Assembly (NCBI GenBank): GCA_030062745.1
Contig: CP099845.1
Coordinates: forward strand, 17,338,903-17,402,902
From: Capitulum mitella
Taxonomy: Eukaryota > Arthropoda > Thecostraca > Pollicipedomorpha > Pollicipedidae
DNA: 64,000 nucleotides
Reading direction: 5' to 3'
A model generated the notes under the pieces. The model searched no databases, was not told where the DNA came from, and worked only from the letters and a program-made list of their open reading frames with translations. Each line of letters opens with the position of its first letter. The stretch's first letter is position 1. Both the position numbers and the translations under genes were made by a program. Shown here one piece after another: positions 19,133 to 60,579 of this stretch.

Positions 19133-20254
19133 TTAATCCGTCCGCCTTGGGGGGGGGCGGCGGTTGACCGCCCCCTTAAGGTTTTTCCGAGATTGCGAGA
19201 GAACGAACTAACGCAGCGCCACGAAACTTTGTGCACCTTTTGCTTGATTATTTTTACGTCTTGTACCCAATTTTTGACCTCAGGTTAACTAAGCTGTCTG
19301 ACCTAACTTAGGTCAAGTGGACCTATGTCCAAAAAACTTAAGCGATCTGCAATTTTTTCGCAAAACATGACATCACAATAAAACTTTGAAGGGTTAGATA
19401 TTTTAATAAATGCAACAAATCTGCTATCTCAGATTTTTGGGAAATGTACGGATCATTGACCTAAGGTCAAGCCTGTTTTCAACATAAGTCGCCTTTTTTA
19501 GAAAATTGAACATTCACGAAAAAAATCGCGCGTTCATAAATTCACGAAGAACTGTTACGGGTCAAAATGAACTGCCATTAAAATCGGCGATGAATGACTC
19601 AGATCGAGTGAAAATGGCAGAAATGGCTCGCACAGCTGCGACTAATACCAAGAAGTTCAAAAAGTTTAAAAAATTGCATATTTTGGAAATGAACAGACCT
19701 TCGAGAATAAAACTCTGCCAGTTATGTAGACTGATAATTAGCGAGTTATTCCAAAATTAAACCATGAGAAATCACTTAAATGGCATATTCTGCGAAAATA
19801 AAAGAACGCTAATATTAATTTCCGTTAATTTGATACCGCCTTCGTCGGCGGCGCCATCTGTATAGCGTTGCAAAAATCACCGAGTCTTTAACTCAACGTT
19901 TCCGTGTACATATTAAGCAAATCGCAGAAATTAGGCATGTATCGACATCTGAGGACTTTTACTTGTCTGCTAGTACCTTTGTCTAGGCTTTATTAGTCAC
20001 AGCCCTTGAGATCCAGGCCGTTTCTCGGTCTCATGCAGGTGACTGAGAAAACATATATAGGGCGTAAATGGCTTACATATTATTCAAAACTAAAGATCAG
20101 ACCCGTTTAGAGCTCTACTTGTCACGACTTTGCAACGGTGAGCTTATTTTTATTGTTCGACCAACCGTTCGTGAGTTAGAAGGGGCGGTCAACTGCCCCC
20201 CCCCCCCCCCAGTCGAGCGTGCATGGAGCCGACCCACAACCGAGCGCGGGTTAG
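19133..20254 (+). mobile_element. TTAA-flanked non-autonomous element, family F1 (copy a)
   Basis: The left end is TTAATCCGTCCGCC followed by a GGGGGGGCGGCGGTTGACCGCCCCC hairpin-forming tract near 19148-19175. The right end has GGGGCGGTCAACTGCCCCC and closes CGCGGGTTAG (TTAA decayed by one base). The interior matches 34028-35210 in the same orientation block by block and contains TGACCTAACTTAGGTCA. It has no ORF of note. TTAA plus CCC ends suggest mobilisation by a piggyBac-type transposase, which is inference. Confidence 0.8.
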
Positions 20255-20804
20255 AAGCCATGGGAGAGCATCCAGCGGCAGATGGCTGGGCAAGGACAGG
20301 GGAATAGCCTACCTGTTGCCTGGAAAGCAAAAAAGCAGACACAAAGCACTGATGGCCCGACACAAACCAAATTTCCTTGTGTTTCTCTAAAATTTTCGGA
20401 TGTCCTGTTTCAAAGCGCCAGTTTCCTTATGTCTGTCATGGAATGGTAAGAGGAGTATAGGGGCTTGCGAATTCCTATCCACAGTTGGGGAGGGGGTGTT
20501 GGGAGGGTGAAGGAGGGGAAAAGAAACATTGTGGGCCATTTCTTTCCAGTCCACGCCCATAGGACTGATGTTAAATTTCAAAAATTCCAAAATGCTGGGG
20601 AAGCTGCAGTCCTACTCCCTCTCCCGCCCTACGTGCATATTACGTGCGTCGTTGAATGTAGTATGGAGCCTTTTTTCTTTTACACTAGATTTTTCCTTAC
20701 GAAAACCTTATACTTGACTTTCCCTCACGAAAACTTTATACTTGACTTGCCCTTACTGGCCACACTACTGCACGTCAGGTAGATCTTCACGAAGGCATAC
20801 CATC
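20255..20804. other. Unassigned sequence
   Basis: Two short near-identical direct repeats (CGAAAACCTTATACTTGAC and CGAAAACTTTATACTTGAC) lie near 20699-20750. No gene is seen. Confidence 0.3.
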
Positions 20805-20980
20805 GTGGAGGCCTTCTTGATATCAAATACGCATCTCCCATTGGCGACACAGTTTCTTGAGTACTTTGAAACCAATAAGAGGGATTTCAATCGTAGCTGT
20901 TCATGTGACGCCCAAAAAATATTTTTACCTCCCGCCCAACCTATTCTTGGTGGATTACAGTTAGCTTGCCCCCCCCCCCA
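20805..20980 (+). repeat. Dispersed repeat fragment, direct copy at 24165-24320
   Basis: Shared blocks in order are TATCAAAT, CTTTGAAA, TTCAA(T/C)CGTA, ATG(T/C)(A/G)ACGCC, TTCTTGGTGGA(T/C)T and a terminal C-run. Identity is roughly 70 percent by eye. Confidence 0.65.
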
Positions 20981-21649
20981 CAGTGGCGTAGCCAAGGCGG
21001 TCCACAGGGACCATGGGCCCTCTGGAGGCCAAGAAGACCCCCTGGCGGCCGAACGGGCCCCCCTAGGGCCGAAGGCCCCATTTGTTTAAATAGCATTAGG
21101 CGCGCGTAGGGCGCCTTAGGCTGTCTGAAACAGACAATTAAAACGAAATAAAAATATTTTAAGCAGGAATTCACCGGATATCCGGTCCGGCCGGATATCC
21201 GGCCGGATATTAGGGATTATCCGGTATCCGGTATCCGGCCGGATATTTTTGTGATCCGGCCGGATATTGCCAGATACTTAACCTCCCGGTGTACGATCAA
21301 GTCGTTGCTCTAATGTTTGCGTCCAAACCCGTTTCAGGAGAAACGTGGCTTGTTGTATTAGATTGTCGATGTAATTGGCAGTTGCAGATCGATCTGGAGA
21401 CCTTGGAACCAATACTTTTCTGTACTGGTCCGGGAGGGTTCGGACATATTTTGCAAGAATGGGACTTAAGTTCAGAGCTGTGAAACAATAGCCAGCATGC
21501 GGTCAGCATCCCATTTTATGAATTATATCCTCCTTTTTCCAAATATTTCTTATCTTTCTCAAATTCTCTGACACTGCATTAAGAGAAAATATAACGTGTG
21601 GGCACAGGGAAATGAGACAGTATTTAATGTCATACCGTAAGCACATTTA

Positions 21650-22578
21650 TTACTGTATGAACATTAAACTTTGCAGAAATGTAGTCACAGACGTTGCAGT
21701 CAGTTCTTGCCTAATGGGTCATCTCCATCTCCTCTCATCTGTCGGCAACACGCAAGCGCCTGGGCAAGCGCACCAGCATTTTACGCGGTACCTATGGGTC
21801 CAGAACGGTACCTGCGGTACCTGTGGGTCCAGAACAGCGATCACCTGGTTCATCCAGCGCTTTAGGGCAACTTTGGGTGTTGCGTACCAGTTTCCCTGAA
21901 ACATCCTCTGCTTAATGATGCCCCAAATGTCCTCAGTAGGACACACATGGGGCACATAGGGGGACTTCTGTCACGCACTCCATCGGCACTCTGGCCTCTT
22001 CCAGCAACTTGAGCGTTTTCTTCGCATAATGAGCGCTGGCCACGTTTCGCCAGATCAACATGTCCCTGTCGAAACAGTCCTCATCCAAATATAGGATGAG
22101 CACATCTCCTACGCACTTCTCACGGTACACGTTGCCATCAACATTACCCGTGCTCGGCATGATAACCGGACTTGTCACACCTCTTGGAGAGATGGCGGGT
22201 CACACGAAAAAAGATTACAGGGAAACTTGCTCTCTTGCCTCAGCTGTACTTCTGCTGGACAGTCTCCACGTGCTCCAACAGAGTACCCAAGGTTTCCTGG
22301 CAAATGCCTCTCGTGATAGGTGAAGCAGCTTTCGTCGTCCATGGCGATGCCACATTCATTCCGATTTCATATGATCCGCGCGACAGTTTCCGGATGAGGG
22401 TCTTTTGAGCGACCTCTTGCTTTTGGGTGGCCTGGAGTGACCTCTTGCTCTTTCGGTACCGAACCTTGTTTGCCACCAACATTTTTTGTCACGTACGCTC
22501 TAGAGATTCCAAACCTTCCAGCCAGAACGCGTTATGACACCCGTTGTTTTTACAGGTCGAATGAGCTGCGGCTGTCTT
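21650..22578 (-). pseudogene. Tc1/mariner-like transposase remnant
   Basis: On the minus strand the DDE-type order is visible across shifting frames. First comes AMDDESCFTY with PGNLGY (near 22250-22350), then LIWRNVASAHYAKKTL (near 22010-22070), then CPTEDIWGIIKQRM and GNWYATP (near 21880-21945). The second catalytic Asp appears replaced (RNVASAHYA where an Asp is usual). The upstream DNA-binding half is missing: sequence homologous to it stops at the TTAA element starting at 22579. At least three frameshifts are needed to read it, so it is inactive. Confidence 0.75.
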
Positions 22579-23626
22579 TTAACACGCGCACTGGAAGGGG
22601 GTCTTTTTGCGCCCCCCCACCCGTTTTTCTTGAATATCTCGAGGACGAATGGAAGCTGGTTGCTGTTACTTTGTGACATTTATGGCAATTAAATAACTCG
22701 TCGAATGACTTAGCAAAATTGGAAATCTGCCGGAAATTTGCTTGAAAAAAAAGTTTGAAGTTTCAAGCATTTGAAGTCACGCAAACATAACGAAAACGAC
22801 GGTTGTCGCTGACAAGTGGGAACTTTGTGAAGGAACTAGCGTTCTACTTAAGACTACCGTTTGAACACAGTTAAGCATTGTAATTCGGGCATAAGTGATG
22901 GACGTACCAAGACCACAGCCAGGGCCAATAAGGGTAAAGGGCATCAAAGGTCAAGGCCAAACAGCTTGTGACCTAATCCAAATTTGCTTTGCAACATGTC
23001 AGTTTGTATGACATATGCATTCAAAGCCCCAATAAAAACACGTGTGCGCACACTGATACGCTTACATATACCGAGGTCAGTGAAGGTCAAGGTCATTAAA
23101 GGTCAAGGCCAAATATCTTGTAACCTGTCCCGGATCTGTTCTGCGACATGTCGATCTGTATGAAATATGAGTTGAAAGACCCTAATAAAGACACGTGTGC
23201 GCACGTGGATACGCATACATATATATCAGAGTCGAAATTTGATCTGGAAAAGATAAAAAATGACGCCATAGGTCAATGACCTGACATGACCTCGACCCAA
23301 AATCCCCAATCAAGACGCCAAATAAATGGAAGTTGTATTTTAAGTTTTAAAGGCACAACAAACTCCCCGTTTCGTTCGAAAAGTTGTACGGAATGGCCTG
23401 CACGGGCCGAGGAAGTGTCCAAAGTTGGCCATTTTTACCCTATTTGACCTTGAAGATATCAACCTAGAGTCATGAAAATTGCACACAATATAAATCGTTA
23501 TAGCCCCACCATGTCCATAGGATTTCATGTCTCTAGCTCTTTCTATTGTCGAGATCGGAGGGAGCACTTTAAGACTCCCCTTCCAGTGCGCGTTAGTGCG
23601 AAACTCCCTTCCACTGCGCGGGTTAA
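22579..23626 (+). mobile_element. TTAA-flanked non-autonomous element, family F2 (copy a)
   Basis: The left end is TTAACACGCGCACTGGAAGG. The right end CCTTCCACTGCGCGGGTTAA is its imperfect inverse, with a second GCGCACTGG-type motif about 30 bp inside. The interior carries many AAGGTCA/TGACCT motifs (22930-23300). The right 400 bp recur at 30239-30619. It interrupts the Tc1/mariner-like remnant. No coding frame. Confidence 0.8.
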
Positions 23627-24164
23627 TGCTCAATCTGGTTGTTTGGTGGTGATCGCCAACATGGGAAACATTACCACGACTCTAGAGGGTTGCCAGCGTT
23701 CTGTTAACAGTCGCTCGTGGGTTCCAAAGGGTCCATAGTGCCTCCAGATAAATGATTTGGGTCGTTCCGGGTTCTCACAGGCAAGTCTCGCGACAATCTC
23801 TCTGTCACCTTGCTTTGATATTGCCTACTGACTGCAAATAAACTGAAATTCCCCACACATTTTTACACGGTTTTAAGGCCAACAGTGGTTAGCATGCATG
23901 AGCCAAATGTTAGTGATAAAACCTGTAATGTTTAAGAAATATCTATAGTTAAAAAAATTTCATTTCTTCATTTCTTCGTACCCACCCGTTACTTCGAGAG
24001 GCATACTTAAGTAATCGTGAAGAAGGCTTGTCAAGTCAGGTATTCTAGTTCTACGAAGGCGCTGTAATGGTATTCTGCGTATTCTGAAGCCTTTGCCTAT
24101 GGGTACCCATGTCCCCCTGCGGTTTTCCAGAAGTGGCGATTTGTCCCCCTAAATTTAAGGTATC

Positions 24165-24320
24165 AAATAGGAAGTTCCCACTGGAGACACTATTTCTCGC
24201 ACTTTGAAATTCAACAAAAGGACATTCAACCGTAAGTTGTCATGCAACGCCAAAAAGTTATTTCTATCCCTCGCCCTATATGTTCTTGGTGGACTGCAGC
24301 CAGCTTATCCCCCCCCCCCA
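24165..24320 (+). repeat. Dispersed repeat fragment, direct copy of 20805-20980
   Basis: It carries the same ordered blocks as the copy outside the hAT element. It lies inside the hAT element. Confidence 0.6.
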
Positions 24321-27136
24321 TTTCTGAATCGTGGCTACATCAATACCTTTGCCTGCAGTGGGAGATGGTGAGCTCCGCTGTTATTGTTGTGTTCTTTGCT
24401 CATCTATTTATTGATTACAAGGAAACCTAAGGAAACGTCACAGTGAGCTTATGCACTAGGGGATGACTCACAGACTGTCGACATTTTTCACTACTTTTTC
24501 AGTTTCCCACATTTTCTTTTCTTTGCTCAGTCTTTTCGGTTCCATTCTTTCGATAGAAATAGTAAATAAAAACACGTAAGCATAATATCCGGTATCCGGC
24601 CGGATGTCCGGCACCCCGATCCGGCATATCCGGTATCCGGCCGGACCACAAAAACCCCGATCCGGTGCATCCCTAATTTTAAGCATTAAAAAAGGTTTGC
24701 GATCCTAATAAATGTACTCTAGATATAAAAGAAGGCTTTCTGTGTTATGAAGAGAGGCACGTGGTCTGAATGATTGTTTAGGGCCCCTCTTAGTTTGTAG
24801 GGAAGTTCACTGCTTGTCTGCGCAGGGCGTCCTGTTGGTCCATAAAGGGGCCATGTCGGCCTCTAGAGGGACCTCTTATTGGTCCGTAAGAACGTTCCTG
24901 ATTTTGCCTCCAGAGGCCGACAGGAGCCATTTATAGGCGGATAGGGGCCCTCAAAAAATAGCCAGTGCCCCCCTTTCCCCCACAGGCTAGCAGGGGCTCC
25001 TAAACGTCCATTCAGAAACGTCCATTCATGCTGGCCTGCAAATGTGCCTCTGCCGACCTGTAAGGGGCACCCGCCGGGTCGACAGGAACATCTCTACAGG
25101 CAGTCAAGGGTCCTGTATTCAAACGGGGCCCCTTTACATACCGACAGTAATTTTAACCACATGGGGCCCATGATTACGAGGGCCAAGCATGGATCCAGGG
25201 GGGCAGCGATGGGGATGATCGTCCCCCCCAAGGCCTGAGAAGGGGCCCCGTATGAGCTTCACAGGGTCTCCAGAAGAACGTGACGGGCTTTTGATGCAGT
25301 CTGGGGGCCTCCAGGAGCGTTAGATGACCCTTGAGACGCATAGCAGACCCCTGAAGCCCCAAAGGGACCCTGAGACCACAACAGGGCCCCAACACAGCAG
25401 AGTGCTCCTGAGACCGCGAGAAGGGTCATAAGGCCCCTGAGACGGCCAAGATGAGGACTGATTCTCGAGGGTGGCATAGAGACCTTGGAATGTCGTAGAG
25501 GCCCCAAATGGATTTCACGAGCCTGTGTAAAAAACTGACGGTTCCTGATGCAGTTAGAGGGCCTCCGAGAGGACTGATGGAACTCTGAGACGGTAGATGG
25601 TCCTAACATGGGTAGAAGGGTCCATAAAACTCTCCAAGTCTCCTGGGACTGCAAGAGGGTTTCAAAACGTCAAATGGTTCATGAGACCGCAAGAACATGA
25701 GGAGACGCCTAGCACGGCATACAAAGGCCCTGACCAACCAGAGGGACCCCCTGAACGGGGATTCATCGGTGACCTCAACTTCGAGAGGGTCCAAATGGGC
25801 TGCACTAGTCTTTTAGAAAACCTGAGTTCTTCATGCATTAAGGGAGCCCCAGGGAGTTCTGCTGGATCCTGAGACGGCGAGTTAGCCCCCTTCACGACAA
25901 ATGACACCTGAGACCGCCAAAAAGGTCCGACAGCCCCTGCGAGGCAAAAACGATAAGAGGCCTCTAAGATGGTAGGGGGACAATGGACAGCCAAAAGGCC
26001 CTCAGGTTTGCTGGTTTGTTAGGCAAGCTTCTGGTACAGCAAAGGTCCTCTTGAGACCTCTAGTGATGTCACTGAAACGCCAGCAGAGGCCCCTGTTACG
26101 GCTACAGGGACCCTAAGACTGCCAAATACACCCCATATGACAGAGAAAGATCCCTGATACAGCCATGACGACCAGCGGAGACGTCCAGAGAGCCCATGTC
26201 GCTGCACAGGGGCCCTGAAATCGCCAAAATGGCTTTTGTAACTATCAGAGGGCCCCTGAGACGGCAACAATGTTCTCCAGAGACGAAAGACAAGACTCAC
26301 TTAGGACAAAAGGGGGCCCCTTGAAACCAATAAATCTTTAGATGTTTTGAAGCTCCTGAAACTGCCAAAGGACCTAGAGGATTGCCAAAGGCGTCTCTGT
26401 CACGGGAGAGAGAGACTTATAGAACACATTTGTTACTGCCTGAGAACCATTTTAGACGGCAAAAATGTCTCAGGGACCACAGGAGGGAACTCAAGATGGC
26501 TTAAGCGTCCCTGAAACCTCAAGATAGGTCTCTGAAACTGTCCGAAGTACCCCTGAAACTGCCAAAGGAGCACCTGAGACGTCCCGAGGGACACGTGAAA
26601 CTTTAAAAGGAACCTGAGACCAGTAGAGGGCCCTGACAAGCAGACGGCCCGAGTCCACCAAAAGCGTCCCTATAACTGCAAGAAGGAACCTAACCTAAGC
26701 TGGCAAAAAAGTCTCCAGAAACCACAGGCTGTGGAGGGGATGGCAGACAGGCCCCTGGACCAAATACAGACACGACATTTCAAACGAAGTAAGGGAAGGA
26801 ACCGCCGAAAATGTCGCCGTTTTTGTCATATTTCGGCTACTATGTGGGAAATAAAATGCGAAGTTTTCTCAGTTAAGGCGAATCGCTTTAATTTTTCGGT
26901 AACCTTTTATAAAAGCAATCACAGAAGTACGCCAAATATTTCCCCATAGACTCTCGCACGGATGAACGTTTTTTTCATACCTGAAAAGCAAAGAATGGGG
27001 ACCCCACGTTGACCATTCCCCTCCCCCCTCGGCTTGGCGACATCATGAAACCGCCCCTAACGAGGGCCCCCATTGATCACGAGAGCTCCCTTGATCTGAC
27101 TTGGTCCCCATGAGCGGAATCCTGGCTATGCCCCTG

Positions 27137-30238: not shown

Positions 30239-30619
30239 GTATATGACGCCGTAGGTCAATGACCTGACAGGACCTCGGCCTGAAACCCTCAGTCAAGACG
30301 CCAAATGAATGGAAATTGTCGTATTCCACGTTTTAACGGCCAAACAAACAGCCTTTTTCCGTTTCGTTCCAAACGTTTTACGTAATGGCCTGTACGGGCC
30401 GAGAAAGTGTCAAAAGTTGACGTTTTCGGACCCCTTTTGACCTTGAAGATATTGTCCTAGGATCATGGAGATTGCACACAATGTACATCGTTATAGCCCC
30501 ATCCTGTCCACAAAATTTCATGTCTCTAGCTCTTTCCGTTGCCGAGATCGGAGGGGGCACTTTTGGACCCCCCTTCCAGTGCGCGTTAGCGCGAAACGCC
30601 CTTCCACTGCGCGGGTTAA
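30239..30619 (+). mobile_element. TTAA element, family F2 (copy b, right part only)
   Basis: It matches 23228-23626 block by block, with ATGACGCC(A/G)TAGGTCAATGACCTGACA, GGCCTG(C/T)ACGGGCCGA and GAGATCGGAGGG, and it closes CCACTGCGCGGGTTAA. The left half is missing. Confidence 0.8.
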
Positions 30620-30846: not shown

Positions 30847-31150
30847 TTAATCCTATTCCCGGCAGGGGGCTGAATCCGCCCCCTTCGGGTTTTTTGCTTG
30901 CCAGTTCCAGGGTTTGTGACGCAGCTGCGCGAAACTTGATGACTTTTCCTAGTCATTGTTTCTACGTGTTGTGGCAAAATTTTGTAATTCTATTCTGCTC
31001 AGGGGCGGAGCCAGGCAACGTTTTTGGGAGGAGTCTCAGGCCATTTTTGACCCTGTAGAGGGTAAAAGAAAAATGTCTCCCAAAAATGGCGTATTTAAGA
31101 CAGAACTTAAACTTTATATGGGTGCATGGATGTATAGGTAAATAGTTGGC
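30847..31150 (+). mobile_element. TTAA element, family F4 (partial copy)
   Basis: It starts TTAATCCTATTCCCGGCAGG with a GGGGGCTGAATCCGCCCCC hairpin. It matches the reverse complement of 51060-51368, including GGGGCGGAGCCAGGCAACG and the GGAATTGGCAAGCAAAAAA-type stretch. Confidence 0.75.
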
Positions 31151-31460
31151 CAAGCATACAAGTACAGTTTTGTTTATCTGAGGTCATTTCACAAGGTCGG
31201 TTCAAGGTGAAAAGTCAGAATTTGATTTCATTTGCCGATTTCCTTAAATGATGTTGATGCTGCCACCTGTTTTGTGGTTGCGGATAACTTGGTGAGTCTC
31301 GGATCCAGGCAGCGCCACGCAGCAGTGGACAGGGATCCAGCGGGACTCGTGTGTGTTGCACTGGAACGATGCTGCTGTGTGGCTGTCTGCACGAGGGGAC
31401 TGTGCTGCTGTGTCGCTGTGTGTACAGGGGAACAAGGCTGCCCCGACTGACTGGTACTTG

Positions 31461-33577: not shown

Positions 33578-33780
33578 TTAACCCACGCCCAACCGACACC
33601 CTGACGTGGGCGGCCGGAGCACGGGGCGTTTCGACGCCCCCCCCCCTTTATTTCGCGAACGGACCGTCGACGAAAAATGAGCCTTGTATCATCAGAAAGC
33701 TCGCCATGAATACATTCCAGAAAACTCAAATTTTTAGGAAAATTTTGAAAAATGCAACTTGACCTACATACTTAAAAACG
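33578..33780 (+). mobile_element. TTAA element end fragment
   Basis: TTAACCCACGCCC at 33578 is followed by a GGGGCGTTTCGACGCCCCCCCC hairpin near 33624. This is the same end architecture as F1. A matching right end was not found before the next element at 34028. Confidence 0.5.
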
Positions 33781-34027
33781 TAGGATTTTTTAGTAGGGCT
33801 CTTGCTCCGTCCCTGATTAAGCTAGAGCAATTTTGAGCATGCCAATGGAAAGCTCATAAAATGCACATTACTGTGGAATATAATTTACGACATGCATATG
33901 ATCACATATTGCATCAGGTGAACGGTGAACATTTTTCATTGCGCTAGTTGAGGTTTTTGAGCACTGCTGGCGAGCTGTTCTTCATGTGTGCTCTTAGAAC
34001 GATACAAATGACTTGTACGGAAGTTTT

Positions 34028-35210
34028 TTAACCCGTGCCCGACTGGGGGGGGGGGGGGCAGTTGACTGCCCCCTGAGGTTTTTCTGGCATTGCGAGAGAA
34101 CCAACAAACACAGTCACCAAATTTTGTGTACCTTTTGCTCCATCAATTTTACATCTCGTGTCCAAATTTTGACCTCAGGTCACGTCAGGCGCCTGACCTA
34201 GGTCAGGTCAAACACACCTATGTCCAAAAAAGTTAAGCGCCCTCTAACTTTTTCACAAAACAAGATATCTCAATAATACTTTCAGGGATTAGTGATCGTC
34301 ATAGATGCAACAAATCTGCTATCTCAGGTTTTTCGGAATTTTCCGGGTCATTGGCCTGAGGCTAAGCCCATTTTTAAGACACATCGCCATTTTTTTCGAA
34401 AATTGACGTAATATTCCATAACATTTTTAGTGTGGAGTGAAGCAGGCATCTAAATGAGGTCAGGTCACGAATAACTGTAGTGAGCCAAAATGTACCACCG
34501 TCAAAATCGACGATGAATTACTCAGAATGGTTAGAAAATGGCAGAACTAACTTGCACAGACGTAAGTAATACCAGGAACCTCAAAAAGTTTGAAAAAGTA
34601 GCATATTTTGGAAATAAACAGGCTCTCGCGAATAAAGCTCCACCAGTTGTGTAGATTGGTAAGTAATGATTTTTTCCAAAATTTAAGCATGAGAAACCAT
34701 CACAAGAACCACTGAGATCAATAAAATTTCCATGGTTAGGCTTTTTTCGCGAAAATAAAGAAACGCTAAAATTAGTTCCCGTCAATTTCTTACTGCGTAC
34801 GCCTGCGCCGCACGTCGACAGCCGGCGCGAAAATTGGCGTGTCTTTAACTCAACGTTTCAGCGAATATATTAAACAAACCCGAGAAATTAGACGTGTATC
34901 GGCATTTGCGGACCTTTACTTGTGTTCTGGTGCCTTTAACTATGCGTTATTAGTCACAGCCCTTGAGATTCAGGCCGTTTCTCGGTCTGATGCAGTCGGC
35001 TGTGAGAAAACATATAGGACGTAAATTGCTTACATATTATCTAAAACTAAAAATGAGCCCAGTTTCGAGCTTTACTCGTTACAAGCTTTCCAACGCTGTG
35101 CTTATTTTTATCGTGCGACCAACTGTTCGTGAGTTAGAGGGGGGCAGTCAACTGCCCCCCCCCCCCAGTCGCCCATGTTCGAGACGGACCGACGGTCGTG
35201 CGCGGGTTAA
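34028..35210 (+). mobile_element. TTAA-flanked non-autonomous element, family F1 (copy b)
   Basis: The ends are TTAACCCGTGCCCGACTGG and GGTCGTGCGCGGGTTAA, both bounded by TTAA. Each end carries a G-run/C-run inverted tract (GGGGGCAGTTGACTGCCCCC near 34055; GGGGCAGTCAACTGCCCCC near 35143). Near 34193 the everted pair TGACCTAGGTCA is followed by a further AGGTCA. It has no coding frame. Homologous copies are at 19133-20254 (same strand) and 59358-60579 (opposite strand). Confidence 0.88.
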
Positions 35211-36130
35211 TGCCGACAGACTAGAATTCCAACGGCCAGACATGACCTGACCTACCCTTGTGACCTGACAAACATTCGGTCGTTTTCTTTGCTTTATGTC
35301 GCGTTCTGTCGAGGGTCAATAACAATGCAAACAAAAGGGCTAGGAGTACCTTAGGAGTGGAATTTCCTGGGTTCCACAACAGTGATCAATAGGGTGCTAT
35401 ATAAGGTCGATCGTATCACTTGACCTGACGTGGGATCATGACCTGGTTTGAAGCACGCTTGGGTTTCGTCTTTTTATTTTTAGGTTTGCCGACTCATAGA
35501 ACTAACCAGAGAGGTAAAGCAGAAAATTTGGATGTGAACAGAGCCTCTACCGCGGTGACCTCGCATGACTTCAGGCGACCTAAGGTCATTTTGCAGCTTG
35601 GAAGCGCCTTAATGCAATTGTTGGACTGCAAAATCGACTTCATTGCCTATGTTTACCCCAGGGGTCATCAAACAGAGTTTTAGACACCTTTTTGCTAGTT
35701 AACCCCAAATGACTTCCTTGGCCCAAGAATACGTTTCAGGCACCAACAAGCCAGAGAAACCGTTCAAAGTCGTTAGAAATAGAGAAATAGGGCGGGAATT
35801 GAGCTGACCTCAGGTCACTGACCACGACCTTGACAACAAATTCAAGACATCACAACGCTTAGGAATGTTCTCCACTATGTCTGAAAGTTCTAGGTCGATC
35901 AATTGCATGGCGTGGCTTGTACAAGACCAAAAAATCGGAGGCTGAGCTCTTACGAGACCTAGGTCAGTGGCACGAGATGACCGGAGGTTGAAAATTCTAT
36001 GCCGACATGCACAAGAGATGTAAGAAAAGGCAATGAAATTTCAGCGCGCTGCGCGTTGTTTTTTTTTTGCTATCGCCAAACGCCCTTAGGAGGGGCGTCG
36101 AGCCAGCCCCCTCCGTTGGGTGTGGGTTAA
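35211..36130 (+). mobile_element. Probable TTAA element, clear right end only
   Basis: The right end has the usual hairpin tract (AGGGGCGTCGAGCCAGCCCCCT near 36092) and closes GTGTGGGTTAA (TTAA at 36127-36130). The interior is rich in TGACCT motifs. The left end is not certain and may share TTAA with the F1 copy ending at 35210. Confidence 0.45.
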
Positions 36131-40555: not shown

Positions 40556-41806
40556 CTCAACCAACACCTATCCAAGGTGGTGCATATATCTGTCCTCGTT
40601 TGGCGCTGCTGCTGCTGATCGCAATCCTCGTTTCACTGCAGAAAATTCGGCACCACTCCACCTGCAATATCCTGAAGCTCTGTCCAAATTCACGTTTCTT
40701 TATCCATACCCTGCACTGTGTCCGTGTAGGAAGCAGCATCCCAGTGTCGGACAACATGGGCGCAACAGGATCACAATTTGACTGAGAGATTAGTGGCTAT
40801 CATTCGAAGCTGCAATCGTGCCTCGCCAGTCACAGCTCCGCCTGAATATGATGAAGCAAATATGACTACTCCTCGTCCACCAAAAAAAACTGTCTCGAAG
40901 TCTACCAAGTGCAGAACCTGAAAGAGCCTCCCTGTGTGCCCTCTACCCCACACAAGCAGAAGCCTCACGTCGACAGACCAGGGACGTCCTGTCGGCCACT
41001 CGCTTGATGCACTTTCCGTCATGCCGTCTGGCCCATTACCGGCGGCACAGGCAAACCGTGACATTCTGGCCTGAAACCACCGGCCTTTGCTTATCGTATA
41101 TGCCAGAACGCGTCGCACCTTTTACGCCCCGGTTGGTGACTGCCGTGACTGCGCTGTCACTGTGGTCGACTTTTAAAGATGCTCGCGTGTAATCGTTTCA
41201 ACAACCTAACTGGGACCACAAAGGCCCATATCGCGCACCGTCCCTCATGAGGTGTATCCACAATCTTGAATCGAGGTCAACTATGGGCAATGCCGGGTCC
41301 GGAAATGCGGTATCAAGGTACCTGGTACGGAGTTGGGCAGCATGATGACGGACATGCCTTGGAGCGACGTAAACTACATTAAGTCACTGGAGGTCTTCCG
41401 CGGCAAAATCGTGAAGAAGCACCAGTCTGTCTTTCTCCAGACCTAAACATTCTCCATGGAATTCCGTGGGGATTTAATCCGTTCACCTCGGATGACTCCT
41501 CGCCTGATCTCATTGACTTACACTTAACGGTATGTTAGGCCATCCCACCTATGACCACCACATCACATTTTCTTCCGCTGCAGTGACAAAATACAATATT
41601 TTAACTGGCGCCCTCCTGGCCAGCTGGCACCTATGCGCGCCAGACTGGGGGTTGACATCCCCTCCCCAACTCGCCAACGATTGGCCGCACGATAAAAATA
41701 AGCATACCATTGGGAAGCTCCCGACAAGCAGAGCTCGAAACCCAGATCATTTTCCGTTTTGGAGAATGTTTTGGCTAATGACACCCTGTATATACATGTA
41801 CAACAC
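40556..41806. other. Unassigned sequence
   Basis: No gene is recognised. Several short frames occur on both strands without motifs. Confidence 0.3.
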
Positions 41807-42799: not shown

Positions 42800-43390
42800 C
42801 CACCTTGTAGTTTCTCCCGACAATGTCCGCACATTAGGCATCTTGGTACTGATACTGGTGATATCCTTGTAGATGGCGACAACCAAGCCACCCTCAATCA
42901 GTTGAAAGCAACAACCTGAGAAGCTCTCCGGCCTGGAGTTCTCGGTCGAAGGAAGCAATGAACATGGCATCAGTTTCCCTGACGCCAGCATCGATGCCAC
43001 GAATAGTGACTTCGCACTCATGTTCACCGCAAGAAAACTGACGGTGCAGCCCGCCTCAACGGGCAAAGCCAGTGCGCTGAGCGATATAAAAACAGGTTCT
43101 TTAAGCGTACATCCAACGCGCTTTCAAACACTGCTCTTCATGGTACTTCGTATCTCAAGAATTGCGAAGAGTTAAGCAAATACTTGCCAACAACGAAAAT
43201 GAAGTTTCCATCACTGACGCTGAGATCAAGAACACCATTTCCACCTTGCTAGAAGCCCCAAAGACAGACAAAAAACAAACTGAAAACCTCCACAAGATCT
43301 TCTACACAAATACCATATCCCACGTCACAAGACCGACGAGAAGGCGCTTCGAGACACCGTGTGGAGAAACTGCTAGGAGGTCAGTCGCCA
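42800..43390 (+). pseudogene. Penelope-like element reverse transcriptase remnant
   Basis: Two plus frames carry parts that resemble the end of a Penelope-type RT. One is FSVEGSNEHGISFPDASIDA (near 42940-43000), like the F-E-E...FLD segment. The other is YIQRAFKHCSSWYFVSQELR then RVKQILANN (near 43110-43195), like the RA-HCSSW...ELxRVKQ(I/L)LxNN segment. HKTDEKALRD follows near 43325. Frames shift and stops intervene, so the copy is dead. The upstream palm domain and the GIY-YIG nuclease were not found. The family call rests on remembered motif layout. Confidence 0.55.
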
Positions 43391-43399
43391 ATTTCTGAC

Positions 43400-43745
43400 A
43401 AAAAGACGTGTTAAAAATGCGTTCGACCTTACGTCAATGACCCAGATTGTTTCGAAGAATCGGAGACAGCGAATTTGCTGCATCTTTGAAGATCTCTAAT
43501 CCTCGAGTTTTGTCCTGATTTTTTTTTTAAGTTACGGAAGGCTTAACTTTTCAACATGGGTTCACTTGACCTGACCTAAGTCAGGACCCTGGCATGACGT
43601 ACGATCGGAACTTTAATGCAAGATGAAAAAGGATAAACCAAAATGTTTGCAAAATTTCGTGGCGCTGCGTTTGTTCGTTCTTGCAAAGTTTCACAAACCT
43701 CGACGCACTGTCAACAGCCCCCCAGACGGGGTCGACTTGAAACGT
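43400..43745 (-). mobile_element. F1-family remnant
   Basis: It matches the reverse strand of the F1 left third: AACATGGGTTCACTTGACCT, TGACCTAAGTCAGG, AAATTTCGTGGCGCTGCGTTTG and GACGGGGTCGAC. Both TTAA ends are lost. Confidence 0.65.
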
Positions 43746-46218: not shown

Positions 46219-46929
46219 TTAACCCTATTCCCGACAGGGGGTAAATCCGCCCCCCTCGGATTTTTTGCTTGCCAATTCCAGTGAATTCAAATGATTGAAA
46301 ACGTTTTCGGATAATCTTAAATGCACATGAGATCATTCCAAGTGACTTCAGGGTCCCTGGAGATCATTTAAGGCTAAAGGTCACAAGTTGATCTGAAGAA
46401 CATGTGACCATGACAATTCCCCCTTTTTCATGTCCCTGGCACCGCCTATGCTAACATTATACAAACACAGTAATAACATTTGTACTTCTTTAGCATAACA
46501 TGACTAGCAGGAACCAAAAAAGCGCTTCTGCTTTTTTCATTCGATTGTTGAAAAACTAATCCTATTTTTGAAACCCTGTGAACGCCTATGAACTTTCTCA
46601 AAACTGCAAATGTGTGTACCAATGGTAAAAGTGCCATCCATAATCCATCATCATCATAATCATCATTCATGGTGATTTCATCGAAATCTGTCTATAAACA
46701 ACGGAGTTATACGAAGTCCAAAAATGCACCCTATTTTGACATTTTTGTCCTCTGCATCCACCCCTTTCAAAATTCGAAAAGCTTCTCTACTAAACGCGTA
46801 CTTTACATCATAGTAAATTGATTGCCGTTTGTTGCGATGAAATAGGACGTGTAATTCTCGAGATCTTCGCCCCCCCCCCCCCCTGCCGGGAATATGCCAT
46901 ACCGTCTAGCCCTCAGGGAATAGGGTTAA
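46219..46929 (+). mobile_element. TTAA-flanked non-autonomous element, family F4 (copy a, complete)
   Basis: The left end is TTAACCCTATTCCCGACAGG. The right end contains CCCTGCCGGGAATA and CCATACCGTCTAG and closes CAGGGAATAGGGTTAA. Near the left end GGGGGTAAATCCGCCCCC can form a hairpin, and near the right end there is a run of C. It is 711 bp with no coding frame. An inverted relative lies at 50150-51368. Confidence 0.85.
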
Positions 46930-49291: not shown

Positions 49292-49374
49292 CTGCGGACA
49301 CAGAGAGCACACCGTAGTCGCAACCAGGCCACCAGAAGGGCACAGCCAAATGAATAAACACAGAACACAACGGC

Positions 49375-50149: not shown

Positions 50150-51368
50150 GGCTGCTATTCCAGGACTAGACGGTATGGCCGAACCCGGCGGGGGGGGGGG
50201 AGATTCGGCTTCTCCCTTGAGACATTGAGAACTACACATCCAATTTTATCGCAACACACGGCAATCGATTTGCCATGACGTAAACTTAAGTCTTATAAAA
50301 GTTTTTTTTTTTAAATTTTGCACCGGGTGGATACAGTTTGTAAAAACGTCGAAATGGGGGATATTTTTCGACTTGCTATAACTCTGTTGTTTATGGACTG
50401 ATTTTTATGAAATTGTCACGAATCGAGATAATATGGATAGGACTTACACCACTGGTCCATACATTTGGAATTTTTCGAAAATTCATAGGCGTTGACGGGG
50501 ATTCGAAAATAGGAAGATTACCTTTTTAAAAAACTGAATTAACAAGAAAGTTAAAAACACCTTTTTAGCCTTTACTAGTCATATCATGCTGAAGGAGCAT
50601 GATCAGATCAATCATAATACAGTGTTTGTATAATGTTAGCATAGGCGGGGCCAGGGACATGAAAAAGGGGAACTGTCATAGTCACATGTTCATAAGATCA
50701 ACTTACCTTTGATTTTAAATGACCTCCAATGACCTTCGTGTCGCTTGGAATGGTCTTGTATGCATTTCATATGATTTGAAAATGTTTCCAATCATTTGGA
50801 TTCATTCTATTTTTAAAATTCCATTTCACGGCCGTTGCGATATAGGGTGAACGCACTGACATTTGGGTCATAGCTCCGTGACCCGACCTGATATCCAGCT
50901 GATACTTGGTACAAAAGAAGGGGGCACCCTGCTACGTCATATATATTCTGGTATTGGCATTTCAAAGAGGACCAAAATTATTACTATGAATCCAAATCTT
51001 GACTTTTCTCGTTGACCCGACCTTGTGAAGTGACATCAGACAAATAAAATTGCATTTGTATGTTGCCCAACTCTTTACCTATATATCCATATAAGTTTCT
51101 AAGTTCTTTCTAAAAAAAAACATTTTTGGCAGACAATTTCCTCTTACCCTCAACAGCGCGAAAAATGGCCTACGACGCCCTCCAAAAACGTTGCCTGGCT
51201 CCGCCCCAGAGCAAAATAGAATTACGAAAATCTGTTACAATACGAAGAATGAATAGCTATCAAAAGTCTGCAAGTTTCGTGAAACTGCGTCAAAATCCCT
51301 GGAATTGGCAAGCAAAAAACCCGAGGGGGCGGATTCAGCCCCCGCCCCCCTGCCGGGAATAGGGTTAA
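50150..51368 (-). mobile_element. TTAA element, family F4 (copy b, longer form)
   Basis: The left part (50150-50840) is the reverse complement relative of 46219-46929. The right 300 bp match 30847-31150 inverted. The right end is GGGGGCGGATTCAGCCCCC then CTGCCGGGAATAGGGTTAA (TTAA 51365-51368). The left TTAA is lost. It therefore appears to be the full-length form of which the other two copies are parts. Confidence 0.75.
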
Positions 51369-52233
51369 CCTTTGCCGGACGAGGGGACGGGGACCGCCAT
51401 CCCCATGAGGTACTTTTGGGACTGCCGGCAAGCGCCTAGTACCTGAGATTCGTCATAGTCCACCATCTCATATCAGGTCACCTGGTTATGACGCGATTAT
51501 TGAGACCTTGCAAGCTGATTTCCTAGATCTGAGCTACGTTTCGGCTTCTTTCTCAGAAGTTTACCGAGATACAGGGCATTTTTTGATACAAGATTGTTTC
51601 AGCGTAAGTCTGACAACACATCGGGCTTGGAAGCGTCAGTGATCTTTCTCGGGCCCGGCAAGGTCAGTGACCTTGTATGACCCCAAGATGCATTTAAACC
51701 CGTCTCAAGGTAATTGCTGGTGCTGATTCTAATTAAAGCAACGACTTTTACCTTTCACCTTTCATCCTTTTATCACCGCACCTTTCATCCTCCCTTACCT
51801 ACCTTTTGTCACCAGAACACTATTCTGCGGTAATAAACCATGGTCCTTCCTGCGTCATTCATGATCATAATGATATATGATCTCTCGTCGGCCCGACCTT
51901 AACCAGAACAAAAAAATGAATATACAGACTGATCAATTCCAAAACTAAGTCGCCACAAAAAGATGACTCGCAGGCACTTCTTCTACAAAACTACCACGAT
52001 GGCGGCCAAGACAGGATACGGCATAGCTCTCGCAGTGACCTGGGAGGCAACGAGGTAGTCCGAAGGGGGTTACACTGGATGTCACTGCAATCGAAAGAGC
52101 TGCAAGCTCGTTTTTGGTCCATCTGTCCCAGTTGGGAGCGAAATGGGCCAGGGTCGGGGAAGGGGAAGGAGGTGGCAAGCGCCTCCACTCGTCGGGCGCG
52201 TAGATGAAAAACCCTGCGTCCGACAAAGGTTAA
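51365..52233 (+). mobile_element. TTAA-flanked element, family F3 (copy a)
   Basis: The left end TTAACCTTTGCCGGACG and right end CGTCCGACAAAGGTTAA are 16-17-bp inverted repeats with one mismatch. The TTAA on each side is shared with the neighbouring element (F4 on the left, F1 on the right). It has no coding frame. Confidence 0.85.
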
Positions 52234-52755
52234 CCGCGCCAGAGTGGTGGTCGGCGCGCTGCACGCCCCACTGGCGGGGCCGCCCCTTTGACTCACGAAC
52301 GGTTGCTTGCACGGTAAAAACAGGCATACCGCTGGAAAGCTCGTGATGAGTCGAGTTCAAAAACTGGTGTCAGTTTTACTTTTGAATGATATGCGAGCCA
52401 TTTACGCTCTACATATATTTTGTCAGAGCCGACTACATGAAGCCGAAAAACGGCCATGATCTCAAGGGCTGCGATTAACTGAGTCTAGGCAAAGGCACCA
52501 GCCAAGAAATCAGTCGCAGATAACTTCAGCGATATCCCCGCTACTCCACGGCGGGCGCCGGTGCCAAAGGCAGGATAAAATTAACAGGAACCAATTTTAA
52601 GGCTCCTTTAATTTTGGGACATCCGCCTTGCTAGGTGGTGCATCTTGATGCTAGTGGTTCTTGTGAAGGTTTTCCCTGCTTGCATTTAGGAACAATTCAG
52701 TAGTCATAAACCAACACAACTGGCGGAGCTTTCGAATGGAAACTAAATAAGTACG
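52230..52755 (-). mobile_element. F1-family element, truncated (copy d)
   Basis: TTAACCGCGCCAGAGTGG with a GGCGGGGCCGCCCC hairpin is followed by blocks matching 59358-59935 (CTCAAGGGCTG(C/T)GA(C/T)TAA, GGCAAAGGCACCA, ACACAACTGG(C/G)GGAGCTTT). Homology stops near 52755. Confidence 0.75.
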
Positions 52756-55469: not shown

Positions 55470-55850
55470 AACATGGATTTCGCTTATTTCGATATCTTTC
55501 ACGGTCACAACCACATTGCTGTCCTAGCCATGGTTTCCGTGTTACAGGCGTCTCAAAACTATTTGGGCGGCTAAGACTGCATTATGTATTATGTTTCCAC
55601 TCGCTGGCAGATCACGCATCCGCGCTGGCCGCCAAAAGGCCCCGACCTCAGCCCCACAGAAAAGATGAGGGCCATCATGGTGGAGGCGGTGTTGCCCCAA
55701 ATCCTACCCATCAGCGATCACCGACGGGTGGACGAGTTGTGGCAGCAGCTGCTGCATCAGAGGGATCAGCTGTGCAGTCGCCAATGGCTTTCTGAGTTGC
55801 TCGCCAGCTCCCTGCCGCAGCGCTTGAGGAACGTTGTTGGTAATGACTGA
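55470..55850 (+). pseudogene. Transposase C-terminal remnant, copy 2, opposite strand
   Basis: The plus frame reads WPPKGPDLSPTEKMRAIM, then RRVDELWQQLLHQRDQL and LPQRLRNVVGND before a stop at 55850. WPP-SPDLSP(I)E is the signature around the third acidic residue of Tc1/mariner transposases. Here Ile is Thr and the usual W after it is R. It is homologous to 53840-54160 in reverse orientation. Confidence 0.65.
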
Positions 55851-57224
55851 AGAATGATCCCTTTCTAAAGTAAACGTGAAGTGTGCACTCCCCTCATAAC
55901 AGATGGTTCTGAAAAAGACTACTGAAGTCATATAAAGGAAAAATAAATAACAAAGAAAAGGGCTAGACATAGATCTAAAACCAAAGGTAATGAATGTCCT
56001 GACGCCCTTTTAACCGCACTTACTGACAGCGGTATACCCTTTCCGTACCTCTACTCCTTCCGCTTTATGTCTGCCAAAATGTTAAGCATCTCCATTCCAC
56101 GGGCACAACAGCAATTAACTGTGGTCGGTGGGTGTGCGTTGGCGATGCGGCCCGACCGCGTTTTGGCTTCTGGACAAATGACACTCAATAAGGTTTTTGT
56201 CCCCTGGCGACCACTCTGATGCGTATTTTACATGGAAATGTCAGCCTCCGCAGTTTCATTATTCTTGCGCAACACACTGACCGACCATTCGTACGACACC
56301 ACTGCCAACTGACGGCGACCACTTTCCAGTGATACGGTACTTTTGAGGCCGACTGTACAGGTCTCCACAAAAGTAATGGTAGATATAAGGGCTCTTGTGG
56401 TAAACCCGCCATAGCTCCGGTGCTTATGGTGCTAATGTAATGTAATTTGAGCAGCCATTTGCCACGACGTAGGAGTACCCGTAATAACTTCAAACCTGTG
56501 CTTCATATTTTAATTTTCATGCCGAAAAACACGAAAAACCATATTTACGCTCCGTACGCGGTGACGTTGGCCAGGTTTCTTAGTTCTGCCACTGCACTAA
56601 CCCTCTCGGCTCCCAAATTGATATGATCAGTTGCGTTGTGAATGAGATACTGGGTAAAGGCCATGAGGAAGGAGTGCGTCTTGATCACATGACATGTTCT
56701 GCCGGAGGGCTGTGAGGGCGTCGTGGAGACTGACCAGGCCGTGTCCGACCTGCAGTCCTTTCCAGTCAGGTAGTTTTTCACCTGACTGGATTTGAACATT
56801 CGACCCGAGCAATGACGGCTGAGAGATTTCTAAGCAATAACGTTGGAAATAACTTACACACGAGTGAACGGTTCATACTGTGTACACAAGAAACCTTTAT
56901 GATAATCATATGGCGAATGCCACTGCCAGGGCAGATTAATGGTAATGACACGAGGTTAAACGGACATATACAGCGTTTATTTACATGGGAGCACTTAACT
57001 CGCCCGAATATATTTCGACATATATACACACACATTCCAAAGGCCGGAGCTTTGTATCTTTTGGGTGGGGGGCATCCCCCAATGTTCAACTGACCTTCTA
57101 ATGTTGAGCTCCCCCTTTCCCCAATGCTTGGCTGGGCCCCCTCATAGTGTGTAACTTGGCCCCCAATATTTTATCAGTTGGCAATGACTTAATAATAAAT
57201 ATTAATAATTAACTAAGTAATAAC
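55851..57224. other. Unassigned sequence
   Basis: No gene is recognised. An AT-rich TTAATAATTAA stretch lies just before the TTAA element at 57225. Confidence 0.3.
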
Positions 57225-57914
57225 TTAACCCTCGCCGGACGACGGGGGTGGATGCTTACCCCAAGCAGTGTTCCCGGGACCACGGCAAAACGGTGCACGA
57301 CAGCGCCGTGAAATTTGGCATAGCTGACGACACATTTATGGCACATGTTTTGGAACAAGAGTGACCCACCCCATCTTGTCGCAGAGCATCGCGTCATGAC
57401 GTCATTACTGAAACCTTGCAGAGCGATTGCTGCGCCAAATGTCGGTTTCGTTATTGTTTCGGGGCAATAGACATGCATAAACGGCAGACGACGGGCATGG
57501 AATCCGCTAAGATTGATAGTCCACATGAGAGCAGGTCGTTTTAGATAGCCCCATCACCTTTAAAGGTCAAACAATGTCAATGACCTTATATGACCTTTTC
57601 TGGCCTCAGAATGTTCCTACGCAATTTTTTGGACGGGACGATTTTAGGCCAATTTGGTCCCAAATGTGTTGTGTTTAACTGGGGAAAATCAATGTCTAGC
57701 TCCCAAACATAGAGTTTGACCTGACCTAGGAGATCACTGGCTGACTTGATGGAGCAAACACGGTTACCACTGGATTCCTTGGGCATATGGCTATCGATTT
57801 CTTCTTGTCCTGAGGCGCCAGATCAATTAAGGACGAAATGGCGAGGAAGTGCCTACCCTCCCCCCTCCCGGTCATCGGTGCGAGTGAAAATCCCTCCCGT
57901 CCGGCGAGGGTTAA
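57225..57914 (+). mobile_element. TTAA-flanked non-autonomous element, family F3 (copy b)
   Basis: The ends are TTAACCCTCGCCGGACG and CGTCCGGCGAGGGTTAA, apart from one mismatch perfect inverted repeats of 17 bp including TTAA. It is 690 bp with no coding frame. Subterminal blocks match 51365-52233 (ACGTCATTACTGA-ACCTTGCA-type region). Confidence 0.9.
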
Positions 57915-58879
57915 ACAAGCGTAAACATTAATGCTGGGAATGCCGGAAAACACGAATATGCATACCCTATCCATATCACACATTTCAAGTGGTGCCAAGA
58001 TAATGCAAACAGAAAACAGTACACGGTAAGTCAGTTATCCATTCCCGATCCGACGAGCCAGGGATGACCAGCCGGAACGTAACTTTTGACACCATGGTGT
58101 TACAAACACGGATCCACTCTTGTCATCAATGTCTTTCATTGGATGGCTTTGCATAACTGCAAAACTGCAACTTCTGTTTAACTTGGCTAGGTCTGAACCG
58201 TTCGCGCAGATTACCAGTGGTGCAGGACATGCACGCCTTTGCGTACGCATCATTTCAACGAAACGAATGAAACGGGCGACCATGTAGTACTGTCGTGAGA
58301 TACCTATACAGCAGTAATATATGGTATCACCGCAGAGGCGAAGGAACGTTTCAGAAAGGGGAAGGGGATATGGCCGCATCGTATTTGCTGATCGGGTACC
58401 AAGGGGAGAAGGTGATTAAGTTCGACAAAAATGTTTCGTCTGATAAAGCGTTAATGTATATTTGGTACAGTGTAAAACATTAATCATTCTTTAGAATAAC
58501 GGCAGTGTAAAATGTTCTTGCAGGGGCTTCCCTGCAGTGAGACTTCGTTCTGAAAGGGCTTCATGTTGGAAATCTCCGGCCGGAATCCAGTGGAGGGGGC
58601 GAAATCCATCCTCGTCTCCGACCTCATGTTTGTCGCAGACTGTCTATTTTCGCACACTTAAGTGATATCTGGTGCGTCGTCAAAACGAAAAAAATAAGAT
58701 GGGCATTTTTGGAGGTATCGCCTCATACAGCCAACCGTACAGAGCGGCAAAACCAGCCGATCGCACCCCCTTCCACCCCCCCCTTTCCGGATATGCGTTA
58801 CTAACGGCGATATTCCATGATATACGAGCGATGTGAAGTAAAATGCTGTAATGTCTGCTAGCCATCGTGGGTCTCCCTT
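57915..58879. other. Unassigned sequence
   Basis: No recognisable feature. Confidence 0.3.
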
Positions 58880-59170
58880 GAAATAAGAATAAGTCTGATT
58901 TTGGCATACTTTCGACCTATGGTAATCATCCGGGAAAAGCCACAAAAACCGCCAAATCGACAAAATTTTGAACATTTGACCCGATATGACCTCGAAGGTG
59001 TTGCCCTCGGGTTACGAAATTCGGACAAATATAGTTGCCCACAGCTGTCCGCTATGAAAGTTTCAAACTAGCTGGTTTCTGAGGCTTTGAGGGTGAAGGG
59101 AGGGGAGGAGAATTTCGCGTCTTTCCTCCGCTGCGTGTTATTTTCAGAGGCCCTCCACTGCGCGTGTCAA
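58880..59170 (+). repeat. F2-like right-end remnant
   Basis: The block order (TTTGACCCGATATGACCTCGAAG, then ...CTCCACTGCGCGTGTCAA) resembles the F2 right end (CCACTGCGCGGGTTAA), but it is heavily diverged. Confidence 0.4.
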
Positions 59171-59357
59171 AAGCATGAAACAAATTGTTTATCAAGCATA
59201 ATTACACATTAAGTAATACCAAGATAGATGTCGGGTGTGTCCAGCATTCTTAGCTTTACGGACATTTCGCAAGACAGGAGTTAAGCATTTTTCGCCGCCT
59301 GGTAGGAATTAGAGCTCTGTCGCCCCCGACGAAGTCTAAATGCCTTTTAATGCCATC

Positions 59358-60579
59358 TTAACCGGCGCACGATCGTGGGTCGGCGACGATCACGCCCGAC
59401 TTGAGGGGGCGGTTGACCCCCCCCCTTACTCACGAAAGGTTCGTCGCACGAGAAAAATAAACACACCGTCGGAAAGCTTGTCACGAGTAGAGCCCGAAAC
59501 TGGCCTCATTTTTAGTTTTAGATCATATGTAAGCTATTTACGTCCTATGTACGTTTTTTTACGGCCGACTGCATGAAACCGAGAAACGACCTGAATCTCA
59601 AGGGCTGTGACTAATAATGCATAGGTAAAGGCACCAACGCACAAGTAAAGGTCCGCAGAAGCCGATACACGTCTAACTTATCAGATTTGTCCAACATATA
59701 CGCTGAAAATATGAGTTAAAGACACATCAATTTTCACGCCGGTTGGCAGCGGGCGCCGCAGCCGTACGCAGTAAGAAACTGACGGGAACTAATTTTAGCG
59801 CCCTTTTATTTTCGCAACAGCAGCCCATCCAGGTAAATTTTTGATCTTAGTAGTTCTTGTGATGGTTTCTCATGCTTAAATTTTGGAAAAATTCATTAGT
59901 TACCAATCTACACAACTGGGGGAGCTTTATTCGCGAGATCCTGTTTATTTCCAAAATATGCAATTTTTAAGGCTTTTTGAGGTTCTTGGTATCACTTACG
60001 TCTGTGCAAGCCAGTTCTGCCATTTTCTACCCATACTGAGTAACTCATCGCTGATTTTGACGGTGGTACATTTTGGTTCACCACAGTTATTCGTGACCCG
60101 ACCTCAGGTCAATGGCTGGAAGTCATTGATAATTTGCCCATTGACGGTAACCAGATGTCTGTTTTACTCCACACTAAAAATGTTGTGAAAAATTCCGCCA
60201 GTTTCCGAAAAACGACGACATGTCTTAAAAATGGTCTTGACCTTTGGTCAATGACCCGGAAAATTCCGAAAAATCTGATAGCAGATCCGTTGCAGCTGTC
60301 AGGATCAATAATCCCTGAAAGCATTATTGTGATATTTTGTTTTGAGAAAAAGTTGCCGGGCGCTTAACTTTTTTGGACATAGGTCCGTTTGACCTGACCT
60401 AAGTCAGACACCTGACTTCATCGAGGTCAAAACTTTGACACAAAGTGTAAAAATGGTCAAGCAAACGGTACACGAGGTTTCGTGGCGATGTGTTTGTTTG
60501 TTCTCTCGCAATCCTAGAAAAACCTCGGGGGGAGGCGGTAAACCGCCGCGCCCCCCCCCCCCAGTCGGGGGTGGGTTAA
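59358..60579 (-). mobile_element. TTAA-flanked non-autonomous element, family F1 (copy e)
   Basis: It is bounded by TTAA at 59358-59361 and 60576-60579, with hairpin tracts GGGGGCGGTTGACCCCCCCC near 59405 and GGAGGCGGTAAACCGCCGCG near 60533. It is homologous to 34028-35210 in reverse orientation over its full length (1222 versus 1183 bp). TGACCTAAGTCA is retained near 60395. No coding frame. Confidence 0.88.

Follow-up and report, generated by a model that had tools for sequence, protein, structure and literature searches.

The window, a stretch of 64,000 nucleotides from Capitulum mitella (C7:17338903-17402902), carries several families of elements bounded by TTAA, here named F1, F2, F3, F4, F6 and F7, and the question is how these families are built and which enzyme has moved them. 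Searches covered the 477 Mb genome in 16 contigs; results that concern the window alone are marked as such. Each element is described by a short, left-type end, called the A end, and a long, right-type end, called the B end, and the copies are collected in Table 1.

A sequence-only reading had proposed at least four families, all ending TTAACC...GGTTAA. F1, F2 and F4 stand as high-copy, TTAA-bounded families, whereas the proposed F3 comprises two different families, the elements at 51365 and 57225 sharing a 24-nt BLAST match; the first of these is F7 in Table 1, and the name F3 is kept for the second. The uniform ends are found at five loci (34028-35210, 59358-60579, 46219-46929, 51365-52233 and 57225-57914), but the copies starting at 22579 and 19133 depart from them. 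Three further copies in that reading proved to be truncated or degenerate: the one placed at 30239 is left-truncated and begins at 30243, the one at 30847 is cut short on the right, and the one at 50150 lacks TTAA at its far end. Its statement that the interiors are unrelated holds, with no BLAST match among F1, F2 and F4. None of the 27 open reading frames (ORFs) of at least 150 aa in the window lies inside any F1, F2 or F4 copy, and two of the 27 extend across the small F1 remnant at 41651. Rfam gave no match in the window. Around 51365-52233 a copy of F4, the F7 element and an F1 remnant stand end to end with single TTAAs in common, an arrangement also described for mPok elements of Daphnia.

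Table 1. Positions of the TTAA-bounded elements and of two end palindromes in the window
Feature	Positions	Strand	Ends and basis
F1 copy, ends intact, nested in F6	34028..35210	+	A end 34028, B end 35210
A-end palindrome of F1 copy 34028 (G-run, CAGTTGACTG, C-run)	34045..34073	+	begins at base 14 past TTAA; from sequence reading and consensus palindrome
B-end palindrome of F1 copy 34028	35139..35166	-	begins at base 41 past TTAA, behind an extra segment of ~27 bp
F1 copy, nearly full length	19133..20253	+	mutated ends (TTAATCC ... GGGTTAG)
F1 copy	59358..60579	-	A end 60579, B end 59358
F1 remnant, adjoins F7 via common TTAA	52230..52732	-	B-type end 52230; BLAST 52283-52501 and 52570-52732; end by eye
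F1 remnant	43386..43723	-	68% identity to F1 bases 26-381
F1 remnant	41651..41767	-	75% identity to F1 bases 1009-1125
F2 copy	22579..23626	+	A end 22579 (TTAACACG), B end 23626 (GGGTTAA)
F2 copy, left-truncated	30243..30619	+	B end 30619
F4 copy, internal deletion	46219..46929	+	A end 46219, B end 46929
F4 copy	50150..51368	-	A end 51368; B end degenerate near 50150, without TTAA
F4 copy, right-truncated at ~31231	30847..31231	+	A end 30847 (TTAATCC)
F7 (first locus of the earlier F3), separate family, offset 27	51365..52233	+	TTAA common with F4 (left) and F1 remnant (right)
F3 (second locus of the earlier F3)	57225..57914	+	TTAA-bounded; sampled copies all within a larger repeat
F6, additional to the earlier reading	33578..36130	-	A end 36130, B end 33578; split by F1 34028-35210

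Asymmetric end layout

The two ends of these elements differ in a consistent manner. In the consensus sequences, the terminal inverted repeat (TIR) of the A end leads directly into a palindrome made of a G-run and a C-run, while at the B end the TIR is followed by extra bases, amounting to a shift of ~27-28 bp, then by a repeat of the inner TIR, and only then by the palindrome. Consensus ends were built from copies keeping TTAACC, comprising 14 A and 18 B ends of F1 (21 loci), 8 and 13 of F3 (16 loci), and 7 and 9 of F4 (10 loci). The end offset was taken as the best position of A-end bases 5-18 within the B end and was compared with 5000 mononucleotide shuffles. It is 27 in F1 (12/14 bases matching), 28 in F4 (14/14), 28 in F2 (14/14) and 27 in F7 (11/14), the last two being measured on one window copy each; the fractions of shuffles that do as well are 0.0006, 0, 0 and 0.0016, respectively. 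In the G-run/C-run tracts reported earlier inside the ends of F1 and F4, the first G-run starts at median positions 14 (A) and 41 (B) in F1 and 15 and 43 in F4; the F3 medians are 15 and 42, with six of eight A ends used for F3 and six of seven for F4.

Two scans covered the window. Of 3113 TTAA pairs spaced by 80-3000 bp, 7 have a TIR score of at least 8; ten other tetramers yielded 0-2 such pairs each. Sixteen of the 56 TTAA(N)CC sites are followed by a G-rich palindrome at one or other of the distances expected, compared with an average of 1.07 and never more than 4 in 30 first-order Markov sequences, with the limit that copies of the same family are not independent. Eight other tetramers gave 0-5 sites in this test, the highest being ATTA and TTTA with five each, perhaps because their letters overlap TTAA. 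Fourteen of the 16 palindrome-positive sites fall in the listed families, the exceptions being 63705 and 12580; the ends at 46929, 57225 and 52230 carry TTAACC yet fail the palindrome criterion.

The termini themselves vary. The consensus terminus of F1, F3 and F4 is CCC, which is also that of piggyBac from Trichoplusia ni (T. ni), and a T follows as the fourth base only in F3 and F4; among window copies, F6 has CCCA, F2 has CACG and CCCG, and F7 has CCTT. A survey of piggyBac elements gives the termini CCCTC, CCCTT, CCCAT and CACTA (PMC10813416).

Copies, flanks and empty sites

The families are abundant. First-look candidates number 8525 for F1, 3953 for F2, 1129 for F3 and 7189 for F4 genome-wide, and the best 40 of each were scored. 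A 13-mer from the F1 B end occurs 3743 times (1891 + 1852), compared with six times (3 + 3) for the reversed pattern. Copies and INDEPENDENCE were judged on fetched copies, namely 20 of F1, 10 of F4 and 16 of F3, of which 16, 7 and 11, respectively, have TTAA on both sides. When flanks on the same side were compared, none of the 190 F1 pairs per side and none of the 45 F4 pairs were alike, which indicates that these insertions are independent.

The nested copy of F1 allows the empty site to be read from its host. Fourteen F6 loci were sampled at the point where F1 lies in F6. Eleven of them align across it, the best with 89.6% identity, and 7 of these 11 have TTAA there; in the remaining three the match extends rightwards from about that point, and two of these also have a separate piece on the left. 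The F4 copy at 46219 is internally deleted: with it as query, the principal match in each of the other 39 scored loci begins at query position 56 or beyond, and one of them has a separate piece for query 1-63.

Transposases, candidate partners and neighbouring repeats

The genome holds 118 matches to PF13843, and 38 of these loci were read with their flanks, namely the 30 best (L029-L058) together with 8 out of 20 additional match regions (L079-L086). Of the best 30, 14 belong to a family here called PB-A and 13 to another, PB-B, by protein; L050 and L054 are assigned to PB-B on the basis of their ends, and L047 forms a group of its own. PB-A and PB-B are both closer to piggyBat than to T. ni piggyBac (93.4 versus 70.8 bits, and 87 versus 43.5). 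A further group shows the opposite preference, with T. ni and piggyBat scores of 95.6 and 29.6 for an exon of L084 (E-values 3.2e-26 and 3.8e-6), 136.1 and 65.5 for L082, and 102 and 31.1 for P0003, a relative from the protein search. L081 and L084 are mutual nearest relatives among the compared loci; against PB-A, PB-B and L047 they give no tblastx match at 1e-4 and only weak tblastn matches (best 4.6e-7, 26% identity). A protein search with the L084 exon returned 39 matches including itself, the others at 29-83% identity, and stops interrupt 25 of the 39. For one transposase, the best named relative comes from the barnacle Amphibalanus amphitrite, aligning over 53% of the query at 61% identity, this being the one named hit of 12. 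Judged by these sequence comparisons, a separate T. ni-like transposase clade is present in this genome.

The most informative locus of this clade is L081. Its positions 344-972 match F2 bases 1-645 (78%) and its positions 3835-4221 match F2 bases 654-1033 (69%), and between these two parts lies the remnant of a T. ni-like piggyBac-type transposase, with stops, oriented from the A end to the B end. A decayed transposase between F2-type ends makes F2 look like an internal-deletion derivative, and F2 elements are thus probably internal deletions of an L081-like parent. L084 offers a second, suggestive indication of shared ends: a B-type end lies ~575 bp past its last exon, with a G-run at +42 (counted by hand), and the final 240 bp are found again at 36 of 40 scored loci, with 26 of these 36 matches stopping at base 4381.

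Two other candidates were rejected as parents. L082 was considered as an autonomous F6, but the transposase region that it has in common with L085 ends at 3513 and does not include the F6-like part; L079, whose transposase lies between F4 pieces, was considered as a parent of F4, but both F4 copies are separate neighbouring elements outside it. In none of the eight divergent loci L079-L086 does a TTAA-type TIR pair score above 7. L082 and L085 form another T. ni-like transposase family, ~81% identical between the two loci, whose ends were not found. L047 (C2:27091099-27092190, minus strand) has a piggyBac-type ORF of 593 codons without stops that is 47-48% identical to PB-A; it is the sole representative of its type among the 30 loci, no TTAA terminal repeats were found in its 1.5 kb flanks, and it is a possible domesticated gene.

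Other repeats accompany the families in the window. An inverted repeat pair, 10724-12580 on the minus strand and 25153-26859 on the plus strand, has TTAACCACATGGGGCCC at one end. The pair, with its ends at 12580 and 25153, was set aside because the flanks outside that TTAA are alike too (by eye), and it probably belongs to a larger repeat. Two copies of the long interspersed nuclear element (LINE) type lie on the minus strand at 3542-7303 and 13364-18357, ~10.2 kb apart, with ORFs resembling endonuclease, reverse transcriptase and RNase H (by eye); they are 99-100% identical in the compared blocks, and the first is partly N. A (CTAAC)n array of 13.6 units occupies the interior position 8749-8816 and resembles the arthropod TTAGG telomere repeat.

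Mobilisation, rival readings and meaning

The favoured reading, with a probability of about 0.78, is that F1, F2, F4 and F7, and probably F6, are large non-autonomous miniature inverted-repeat transposable elements (MITEs) of the piggyBac superfamily, mobilised by transposases of the T. ni-like clade. Mobilisation of the piggyBac type, which the sequence-only reading had suggested, is well supported by TTAA duplication, CCC termini in several families, the single-TTAA empty site of F1, the asymmetry of four families and L081. The single common enzyme that it also envisaged fits less well than a clade of related T. ni-like transposases. The elements insert at TTAA with duplication of the target and would be cut and pasted in trans by T. 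ni-like enzymes. By analogy with T. ni piggyBac, the catalytic core would bind the TIR and its inner duplicate, and the cysteine-rich domains would bind the G-run/C-run palindrome, which may serve as a double-stranded binding site rather than as an extruded hairpin; the two ends would then be synapsed asymmetrically. The families may have arisen through internal deletion, for which F2 gives the outline only, and spread in trans.

Several observations weigh against this reading. A transposase with matching ends is available for F2 alone, in the decayed L081, whose interior is found in one of 40 scored loci and whose gene is broken; no autonomous partner for F1, F4, F6 or F7 was found among the 38 PF13843 loci read with flanks. 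Where TTAA would be expected, the B-type end of L084 is followed by TTTA, and the two sister loci of L084 (C13) cease matching at 4035, 346 bp before that end, so this end may belong to an adjacent MITE. The cysteine motif in the L084 C terminus aligns to T. ni piggyBac below significance. The offset of F3 and F6 is 25 and not significant (shuffle fractions 0.77 and 0.94). The empty-site prediction that is borne out for F1 fails for F3, since its predicted empty site is spanned by none of the 40 scored loci (152 candidates), and among its 16 copies the left flanks resemble each other in all 120 pairs and the right flanks in 105 of 120. F3 was therefore rejected as an independent family, and the alike flanks and missing empty site point to a larger repeat that carries it.

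As the parent of F2 is a single locus, the L081 transposase could also be a later chance insertion into an F2 MITE, in which case it would not reveal the mobiliser, and in favour of this the interior is present in L081 alone among the 40 scored loci. This alternative is nevertheless unlikely. The insert is not bounded by a TIR pair, as the middle of L081 (1101-3560) contains two TTAAs and no TIR pair, and the gene runs from the A end towards the B end. With L081 as query, the middle is found in none of the other 39 scored loci, the left side in all 39 and the right in most, so that F2-like loci match both sides without the gene-bearing middle.

Mobilisation of F1-F4 in trans by the piggyBat-like PB-A and PB-B is improbable as well. 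These are the best-preserved piggyBac elements seen here, they use TTAA and start with CCC, and cross-mobilisation of coral MITEs on a common CC[C/T]T motif has been proposed (PMC2872659). Their ends (CCCATTAACGCCCA and CCC[T/A]TTAGTGCCCA), however, differ from those of the F families, and they show neither a segment duplicated at an offset (shuffle fractions 0.38 and 0.46) nor G/C palindromes. Autonomous copies, each between TTAAs, are also found inside F1 (PB-A, L031), F2 (PB-A, L046) and F4 (PB-B, L037), and this nesting gives relative ages: some F copies are older than the insertions they contain.

That the G-run/C-run tracts are mere slippage products of G and C runs, without a role, is very unlikely: run lengths do vary between copies, but families whose TIRs differ still share the position, the arm pairing and the offset between ends, and palindrome sites exceed the Markov controls. 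Sola3 elements duplicate TTAA and use a Sola transposase. Another TTAA-targeting superfamily of this kind, Kolobok or possibly Sola3, is the least credible driver, for although Kolobok duplicates TTAA and makes MITE families, its termini are described as RR, and AGGRR in T2-MITEs (PMC6004289), rather than the CC or CCC seen here, and the transposase between the F2 ends is of the piggyBac type; no search of this genome was aimed at Kolobok or Sola.

Known systems offer several points of comparison. The minimal ends of T. ni piggyBac are LE35 (left end) and RE63 (right end), a difference of 28 bp; the right end contains an insertion of 17 bp as well as a duplication, and a dimer of the cysteine-rich domain binds a 19-bp palindromic repeat (left-end bp 17-33) (PMC7351741). 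The asymmetric ends, termed "a puzzling arrangement" and "enigmatic", are both required together in cells (PMC7351741). The families here resemble T. ni piggyBac (IFP2) in TTAA, the CCC of several termini and a palindrome near one end that is shifted inward at the other by insertion and duplication, and the related transposases of this genome match T. ni better than piggyBat; they differ in that their palindromes consist of a G-run and a C-run with a short core, and the window elements lack a transposase. Myotis piggyBat also belongs to the piggyBac superfamily and uses TTAA, but its cysteine-rich domain is described as folding in an unrelated way and its right end as lacking a matching palindrome (PMC11707139); PB-A and PB-B, which are closer to it, lack F-type ends.

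The sequence-only reading regarded the families as an undescribed group. They are new piggyBac MITE families, but TTAA-bounded piggyBac MITEs as a kind are already known from corals and Daphnia. In Daphnia, also a crustacean, Pokey is accompanied by mPok, large MITEs of ~750 bp that appear to be deletion derivatives of autonomous elements, use TTAA and frequently insert into the TTAA of another copy (PMC3849761); they total 90-110 copies, against thousands of F1 end motifs here. The CMITEs of Acropora share TTAA duplication and several families per genome with the elements here; their termini are CC[C/T]T, and they have common interiors with differing TIRs, whereas the families here have unrelated interiors and a common end layout (PMC2872659). 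A piggyBac survey that includes Amphibalanus amphitrite, with the entries 5 and 3 in its table row, deliberately left MITEs out (PMC10813416), and no published report of these families or of the conserved offset was found in titles and abstract openings, mostly of non-subscription literature, among the matches listed.

A broader interpretation, offered tentatively and somewhat doubtful as it stands, is that the T. ni left-end/right-end layout, including the ~28-bp offset, is an old constraint retained across many families of unrelated sequence, with each member of a diverse T. ni-like transposase clade having its own matched palindrome and its own swarm of MITEs. The combination of different TIRs and palindromes with the same offset argues that selection keeps the geometry rather than the sequence. 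If true, the families would amount to a natural series in which cysteine-rich domains and their binding sites have co-evolved. The families give comparative evidence for conserved spacing and supply natural variants with which the asymmetric-synapse model may be tested and the piggyBac tool set widened.

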